Origin: Thermincola carboxydiphila
Lineage (GTDB): Bacteria > Bacillota > Thermincolia > Thermincolales > UBA2595
DNA: 64,000 bases
Direction: 5' to 3'
NCBI GenBank assembly: GCA_016841045.1
Contig: JAENZX010000020.1
Coordinates: 1-64,000 of the forward strand
Positions 21,640 to 43,755 of the stretch are shown piece by piece. The position numbers and the translations under genes are program-made. Below the pieces are notes generated by a model. That model was not told where the DNA came from and did not search any database. It saw only the letters and a program-made list of their open reading frames with translations. The first letter of the stretch is position 1. Each line of letters opens with the position of its first letter.

Positions 21640-21860
21640 GACGTGATACCTGTTGTCCTTCGCTCCATGCGCCGGTTTTGACGAAACTAACAGCCATTCC
21701 GCCTAGGGTGGGCACGGGTCCCCGCCAATTCGGTGTCCTACCTCAATGGCGGCGGAAGCCCTCCTAGCTTCCGCCCTTACACCCAGGCCGGGCGGAATGG
21801 CAGTAAGTTTCGTTACCAAAACCGGCGCTAATTATGACTCCGGACAACAGGTATCACGTC
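21640..21860. repeat. Nested palindromic structured element, copy 1
   Basis: About 220 bases that fold on themselves. Outer arm: 19 exact pairs (21640-21658 with 21842-21860). Second arm: GCGCCGGTTTTG (21669-21680) with 21817-21828, then ACGAAACT (21681-21688) with 21806-21813, then GCCATTCCGCC (21693-21703) with 21791-21801. Two inner hairpins: CCGCCA/TGGCGG (21722-21752) and CGGAAGC/GCTTCCG (21753-21773). A second copy at 33650-33867 keeps the same arms with compensating changes. It codes for no convincing protein. The downstream 150 bases (21861-22015) hold nothing I recognise. Confidence 0.85.
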
Positions 21861-22062: not shown

Positions 22063-22271
22063 AGGATTGTTGGCTGGGCGGTGTATCCAGCATACCTGTT
22101 AACTATCTTCCGATAGCGTGTCGGGAACCATTTCCGATCCTCAACAATCCTTTTCTAAACTATGTTATCTTTAATGTTAACGAAGGTCAATTATCCATAA
22201 AACGAGGAAAACTCATCTTTCGATGAGTCCCTCAAACCGTTACCACCTTTTTAGGTGAGGCCCATAAAGGC
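22063..22271. other. Structured intergenic region, possible non-coding RNA
   Basis: AGGATTGTTG (22063-22072) pairs exactly with CAACAATCCT (22142-22151), enclosing three small hairpins: GCTGG/CCAGC, CTATC/GATAG and TCGG/CCGA. A second set follows: ACTCATC/GATGAGT (22211-22228) inside GAGG/CCTC, CACCT/AGGTG (22244-22257) and GCC/GGC (22260-22271). TTAACGAAGGTC occurs twice (22040-22051 and 22177-22188), the first inside the hairpin at 22027-22054, so alternative pairing is possible. Strand and class are unknown; I could not match it to a riboswitch family. The following AT-rich stretch to 22493 holds no convincing gene. Confidence 0.4.
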
Positions 22272-33649: not shown

Positions 33650-33867
33650 GCGTAATACTGTTGTACACGTCTCCATGCGTGGCTTTTGACGAAACTAACA
33701 GCCATTCCGCCTAGGGTGAGCACGGGAACCTGCCAATTCGGCGTCCTGCCTCAATGGCAGGTGGAGGCCGTCCTAGCCTCCACCCTTACATCTACGGCGG
33801 GCGGAATGGCAGTAAGTTTCGTTACAAAAACCCACGCCAATTCCGACTTAGCACAACAGTATTACGC
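33650..33867. repeat. Nested palindromic structured element, copy 2
   Basis: Same architecture as 21640-21860. Outer arm GCGTAATACTGTTGT (33650-33664) with 33853-33867; second arm GCGTGG…TTTTG (33677-33688) with 33825-33837; ACGAAACT (33689-33696) with 33815-33822; GCCATTCCGCC (33701-33711) with 33800-33810; inner hairpins CCTGCCA/TGGCAGG (33729-33761) and GGTGGAGGC/GCCTCCACC (33760-33784). Changes relative to copy 1 occur in pairs that keep the helices. A 71-codon open frame runs through it but is explained by the palindrome. Confidence 0.85.
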
Positions 33868-34167
33868 TAACCTATTAGCGTTTTGGGCTAAACATACATA
33901 AAGGGAGTTTAAACAAGGAAGCCTCCCCACTTAGCATGCAGGACGCGCGCTTGAGTGTAATTTGAGTGGAGAATTGTTGCGCTGCGAGTTTGATTCGGTA
34001 AGTTGACAAACGATGGTGACACAATGAAAACCTCCGCAAATGTCTAAACTCTCTAAGGCAAGCGAAAATGAGCTTAAAAACCGGGATTTCTTTAGAACTT
34101 ATCACATAATCCAGGGAAGCCGGTTGATGAGGCCCCAATTTACCGCAAAATATTGAGCGGGCGCCCG

Positions 34168-34297
34168 GGCGTGGGTTTAAGCAGGTTTGTGAACTTGGAC
34201 CTAGGCGGGCGGAATGGCAGTAAGTTTCGTTACCAAAACCCACGCCAATTCCGACTTAGCACAACAGTATTACGCTAACCTTTAGCGTTTTGGGCTA
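34168..34297. repeat. Rearranged third copy of the structured element (3' half)
   Basis: Bases 34204-34297 repeat 33796-33891 almost exactly (one substitution and a 2-base gap over about 95 bases), covering the right half of the element plus its flank. The left half is missing, but GGCGTGGGTTT at 34168-34178 pairs exactly with AAACCCACGCC at 34236-34246, so one arm has a new partner. The 33892-34167 stretch between copies holds no gene that I recognise. Confidence 0.75.
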
Positions 34298-43390: not shown

Positions 43391-43498
43391 TTTTTTATCC
43401 TCCCGATAGTTAGCTCTAATAGCTGTTAAATTACCATTTTAGTATAACACTGCCTGTAATGCCAGTCAATTAAGGGAGTAGGCAGTAGATAATTGAGA

Positions 43499-43535
43499 AT
43501 TGAGAATGGACAATTGACAATTGTCCATTCTCAAT
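43499..43535. repeat. Perfect 18-bp palindrome with flanking short repeats
   Basis: ATTGAGAATGGACAATTG (43499-43516) and its exact reverse complement (43518-43535) with a 1-base centre, flanked by further copies of AATTGAGAAT and AATTGTCAATT. The surrounding 43391-43755 gap otherwise holds a -10-like TATAAT at 43661-43666 and a small hairpin AATGCG/CGCATT at 43677-43694 before dapF. This ATTGAGAATTGACAATT type of repeat is scattered in many genomes. Confidence 0.7.
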
Positions 43536-43755
43536 TGTCAATTTGCACAACTCACCACTATCCGCTAATATATTGTATACACGCCGCGGCAGCCTTGCAA
43601 TTCACTAATAGTTGTAATAAGATAAATAATTAGATGCAGACTTTGTATTTATTTAGTTGTTATAATGCGTGTTTTTAATGCGGTTTAACGCATTTTCGTT
43701 TTTGTTTTAATGAACTAAATATCGGCGTTTGCTGTTTTAAAAGGGGGTGGAATAA

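Follow-up and report, generated by a model that had tools for sequence, protein, structure and literature searches.

What are the two long nested palindromes that lie in the window analysed here, a stretch of 64,000 nucleotides? A first-pass annotation had described them as a structured element with conserved loops, which fits either a functional RNA or a protein-bound hairpin, and covariation among many copies of the element's tip, hereafter called the head, supported this description. We consider it likely that the palindromes are copies of a mobile nested-palindrome repeat and that this repeat has a TwoAYGGAY-like identity. The feature is real and widespread: a known RNA motif in a divergent form that belongs to a mobile repeat. 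With these data a class of nested palindromes dispersed in genomes is connected to TwoAYGGAY, a named RNA without function since 2010.

Copies in the window and their fold

Both full copies (Table 1), with the arms and loops quoted for them earlier, match the sequence as written. They share 83% identity across 217-230 nt and fold far below dinucleotide shuffles (copy 1: -134.9 kcal/mol, z -12.5; copy 2: -109.1 kcal/mol, z -8.6). Overlooked so far were the two half copies listed in Table 1 and a third full copy at positions 67350-67569 of the contig, 3.4 kb outside the window, which is 94% identical to copy 1. The upstream neighbour of copy 1 encodes a DksA/TraR zinc finger and that of copy 2 is carB (name assigned from the gene's own sequence); relative to both genes, the TwoAYGGAY-like strand runs antisense.

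The earlier statement that both sides of a helix change where the copies differ does not hold generally. When copy 1 is set against copy 2, nine Watson-Crick pairs have become a different Watson-Crick pair through changes on both sides, versus about 30 paired-position comparisons that changed on one side only, a list which includes some alternative pairings.

Table 1. Positions of the palindromic copies in the window and of the parts of their fold
Feature	Position	Strand	Basis or remark
Full nested palindrome, copy 1	21640..21860	- (strand of TwoAYGGAY-like head)	sequence, repeat comparison, fold, head model
Outer arm, left half, copy 1	21642..21658	.	pairs with 21842-21858
Core helix, left half GCCATTCCGCC	21693..21703	.	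sequence, fold
T-shaped head, copy 1	21719..21777	-	model R1 match, 71.1 bits
Head hairpin 1, copy 1	21722..21752	-	loop GGA (minus-strand UAGGACA); tandem G-A internal loop UUGA/GAAU
Head hairpin 2, copy 1	21753..21773	-	loop GGA (minus-strand UAGGAGG)
Core helix, right half GGCGGAATGGC	21791..21801	.	sequence, fold
Outer arm, right half, copy 1	21842..21858	.	pairs with 21642-21658
Full nested palindrome, copy 2, 3' of carB	33651..33866	-	sequence, repeat comparison, fold
T-shaped head, copy 2	33727..33787	-	model R1 match, 65.4 bits
Half copy, different own-genome subfamily (L130, L132, L142 type)	33989..34057	.	82-86% identity; in spacer 3' of copy 2
Truncated copy, right arm (3' half) only	34199..34274	-	97% identity to copy 2 right arm, ~100 nt

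The head as a relative of TwoAYGGAY RNA

An Rfam scan of the window found no known family at the element. The earlier view that no named family matches nevertheless did not hold. The element tip, two hairpins in a T shape, is a divergent relative of TwoAYGGAY RNA (RF01731), which in the window would be read on the minus strand. TwoAYGGAY RNA was described as a structured RNA without an assigned function (Weinberg et al. 2010, PMC2864571). Two Lachnospiraceae loci of the same element type match RF01731, scoring 117.5 and 109.9 bits; the matching strand is the reverse of that read in the first-pass annotation. Outside the Lachnospiraceae, in the genome of the window and in other Bacillota, scores are 32-42.7 bits, at or just under the curated gathering cut-off of 43 bits; this applies to other subfamilies of the same genome (L140, 40.6; L011, 40.5; L010, 32.0 bits) and to a Thermincola locus (L017, 42.0 bits). 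The window copies gave no match to RF01731 at E<=5 and did not reach the gathering score, and because this cut-off was tested and missed we call them relatives and not members.

The RF01731 matches cover the same two-hairpin region as our head model R1, a covariance model of the element tip. Common to both are the adjacent hairpin pair closed by a common or long outer stem (seen in the folds and in the head model), the GGA-bearing loops and a tandem G-A in one stem, which nearly all heads show as UUGA/GAAU or CUGA/GAAU; PMC4333381 pointed out this internal loop for TwoAYGGAY. The window copies differ from TwoAYGGAY in their loops (UAGGAC, UAGGAG or CAGGAC), which keep GGA but not AYGGAY, and in being missed by the Rfam model, whereas relatives elsewhere score at or just under its cut-off. 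L010 and L011 of the same genome carry AYGGAC or AYGGAU in both loops. In the open-licence papers searched, no link of TwoAYGGAY to dispersed, mobile nested palindromes was found.

Searched with R1 (E<=0.05 for counts per genome), the genome of the window contains 19 head matches, with arms of several unrelated sequence families; weak matches to the element within this genome cover the tip only, that is, two side-by-side hairpins. Three species of a sister genus, here called Thermincola, have 10, 22 (G007) and 7 matches, a Syntrophomonadaceae genome 31 and a Lachnospira genome (G044) 72. Altogether the head was found by R1 in 52 of 394 sampled good-quality genomes of the phylum, often in many copies, so that TwoAYGGAY-like heads are extended to many genomes below the Rfam threshold. 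An exact-pattern search detected it in an Omnitrophota genome as well. The head was not found in viral contigs, and blastn with the element gave no match to phage and plasmid records. Metagenome contigs of a single Lachnospiraceae genome (CAMAHO; L025, L029, L031, L038, L042) end inside or beside the element, and copy numbers from short-read genomes are for this reason probably underestimates. The elements are 220-420 nt long and nested, with extremely long, near-perfect arms.

Dispersal, inversion and nesting

Copies of the element are dispersed, vary in occupancy between genomes and are in some cases inverted at their site, none of which had been foreseen. The L161 site is occupied in G007 and empty in its Thermincola sister species G004 and G008. 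In another genus, copies at the same site have opposite orientations in different species (L219 vs L229; L225 vs L228 and L234); element similarity does not separate inversion across the arms from re-insertion. Because of the empty site and the same-site inversion we regard the copies as dispersed mobile palindromes and not as fixed RNA genes, and with occupancy and orientation varying between sister species TwoAYGGAY should be studied as a repeat rather than as a single RNA gene. The comparison of genomes with and without the element, which the first-pass annotation had proposed as a search for target-site duplications, thus delivered an empty site but no clear duplication; the flanks are too diverged, and the palindrome often continues into the bases adjoining its ends.

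Multicopy, non-coding, with inverted-repeat ends and with a site found both occupied and empty, the element resembles MITE-like repeats such as ERIC, bcr1 and REPINs, with which it shares being short, palindromic, mostly intergenic and insertion-polymorphic. It differs from these in its nested structure of 220-420 nt, in a conserved T-shaped head that occurs Bacillota-wide and in an Omnitrophota genome, in having no Y1/RAYT partner and in carrying the same head on unrelated arms. The element would be a non-autonomous, MITE-like palindrome of the Bacillota whose copies may be spread by an enzyme acting in trans.

No autonomous parent or transposase was found with Thermincola outer arms at a spacing of 0.6-2.5 kb among 17 arm-bearing loci. 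That the outer arms bound a complete insertion sequence was also considered and rejected, as only short palindromes were found. A Y1/RAYT transposase was dismissed as the driver, Y1 being absent from three head-bearing genomes (G043-G045). The Y1 match in the genome of the window (145 bits) was judged to be an IS200-type transposase from its score and size, and a RAYT locus of the Lachnospiraceae (L049), also set aside, is without the outer-arm motifs of the element.

Small palindromes are inserted in the two head loops of L151, and hairpin 2 of L039 carries a larger one; palindromic insertions in head-hairpin loops were seen in L176 and L177 as well. This suggests that hairpin tips are insertion targets, and nesting may have grown partly by such insertions. 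The Thermincola outer arm also occurs as an empty shell and as the shell of a core that is quite different. This second nested core begins with TATGAGTCTAAGCTGC, contains GTCCCCGAACTCGATGGCTCA and was seen within the same Thermincola outer arms at L198, L200, L202, L203, L208, L209 and L210; neither L198 nor L202 had an Rfam match. In G004, three loci with similar genes and the same upstream position carry the second core (L203), the shell only (L205) and a degenerate head (L207).

Conservation of heads and arms and the possible function of the head

The excess of compensatory changes in further copies, for which the first-pass annotation had recommended to look, is present in the heads. In 78 distinct heads all 18 pairs show two-sided changes, with 213 two-sided cells observed versus 66.7 in shuffles and a covariation score of 0.401 versus 0.02-0.06 for slid structures; fitting this alignment to the model favours structure, but the seed alignment shows the same direction. 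GGA is found in the loop of hairpin 1 in 78/78 heads and in that of hairpin 2 in 73/78, the model itself favouring GGA, and the two GGAs are 21-27 nt apart in 71 of 72 heads.

Heads are also conserved in place. Seven same-site comparisons in two genera gave 4 differences in 420 head positions, 50 in 1256 arm positions and 1222 in 10473 flank positions, i.e. rates of 1% in heads versus 12% in flanks. Since several of these comparisons share a genome and the loci were found via the head model, which favours conserved heads, this conservation is only indicative and may reflect either constraint or replacement by other copies. Constraint is favoured by L150/L172/L152, where a locus-specific head is retained in three species, and replacement by L144/L174 and L157/L171, which are different subfamilies at the same site. 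Unless the copies are homogenised, a purely selfish repeat would not need conservation this strong.

It could be that the copies are RNA genes adopted by the host, functioning as an sRNA or UTR element (e.g. a CsrA sponge) under host selection, with mobility being incidental. The barely changing heads, the locus-specific head of L150/L172/L152 and the near-invariant GGA loops at fixed spacing agree with this explanation. We nevertheless hold it to be rather unlikely, as orientation at one site differs between species and subfamilies are exchanged at the same site. Moreover, the head strand was antisense to both flanks at 24 loci and sense at 11 (loci with callable genes, crude open-frame calls), and no promoter-like site was detected on either window copy. 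The orientation flips, the antisense tendency and the missing promoter count against a cis-acting RNA. Given this antisense tendency and the lack of a promoter-like site on the window copies, transcription of the head strand is putative.

For the mobile palindrome, the arms tell a similar story over long divergence and a different one at single sites. Among non-orthologous copies, two-sided changes make up a growing share across divergence bins (0%, 10%, 9%, 20%, 27% and 34%), far above the expectation for independent mutation, which we estimate at a few percent. Same-site copies in sister species, on the other hand, show 39 one-sided versus 1 two-sided Watson-Crick arm change. The claim of selection on structure, raised in the first-pass annotation, stands for the head and for the arms over long divergence; in same-site arms of sister species, changes are almost only one-sided. 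At matched divergence orthologous sites are deficient in two-sided changes, which with few independent sites is suggestive but not proven. An unmatched contrast of orthologs and paralogs (p 0.0004) was discarded, being confounded by divergence and only suggestive once binned.

Palindromes are subject to arm-to-arm correction by template switching, and the two-sided changes could in principle stem from such correction of one arm from the other instead of from selection on pairing. Several double changes between L144 and L174 at the same site would agree with this. We consider it improbable, however, as one-step conversion predicts a roughly constant share of double changes, whereas the observed share climbs with divergence as in stepwise compensation, and as single changes prevail so strongly in same-site copies.

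On the head strand the same-site one-sided arm changes comprise 15 leading to G-U, 8 to A-C and 16 others, and neither strand clearly favours G-U. The arm mismatches of all elements (77 A-C, 56 G-U, 254 other) were likewise not decisive as a strand test. This little preference for G-U, together with the near-perfect arms of extreme length and an orientation that makes no difference at a site, would suit an element acting at the DNA level, in which an extruded DNA hairpin is the functional form (a substrate of transposition or the target of a chromosomal protein) and its reading as TwoAYGGAY RNA comes second. Within the core helices of the head, however, minus-strand G-U pairs slightly exceed A-C (18 versus 7, with a model bias present), and GGA hairpin loops suit an RNA-binding protein well. 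A DNA-level function is in our opinion rather unlikely.

For the head of the mobile repeat, binding of CsrA to the GGA loops is our best guess at a function, and a tentative one. TwoAYGGAY has been proposed as a CsrA-binding RNA (PMC4333381). In a transcript of the head strand, a CsrA dimer could bind to the two GGA loops, which are spaced by 21-27 nt, and this might titrate CsrA or mark the transcript, as in the published idea on TwoAYGGAY (PMC4333381). The head resembles CsrA-sequestering RNAs of the CsrB/CsrC/RsmY type in presenting GGA hairpin loops at a spacing that a dimer can bridge. It differs from them in being a dispersed repeat for which no promoter was found and which offers only two candidate sites per copy. 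CsrA is encoded in 51 of 53 head-bearing genomes versus 241 of 346 others (Fisher p 5e-6; at genus level p 4e-4). As flagellin is present in 53 of 53 head-bearing genomes, this link is weak and inseparable from motility or ancestry; within flagellin-positive genomes the CsrA difference is small (p about 0.02, split counted by eye). Strains with many and with few copies coexist within one genus, which makes the CsrA idea testable. A wider reading, that TwoAYGGAY is the tip of widespread self-nesting mobile palindromes with a CsrA-binding head, a selfish repeat displaying sites for a global regulator that the host genome conserves, flips and swaps in place, appears unlikely to us.

Two further structures were noted in the window. 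A Skipping-rope RNA (RF02924, 60.1 bits) lies at 22065-22149 on the minus strand; on the same strand it is flanked by a promoter-like site (22190-22162) and a terminator-like hairpin (22054-22027). A near-perfect inverted repeat with arms of 26 nt and a gap of 1 nt is located at 43491-43543.
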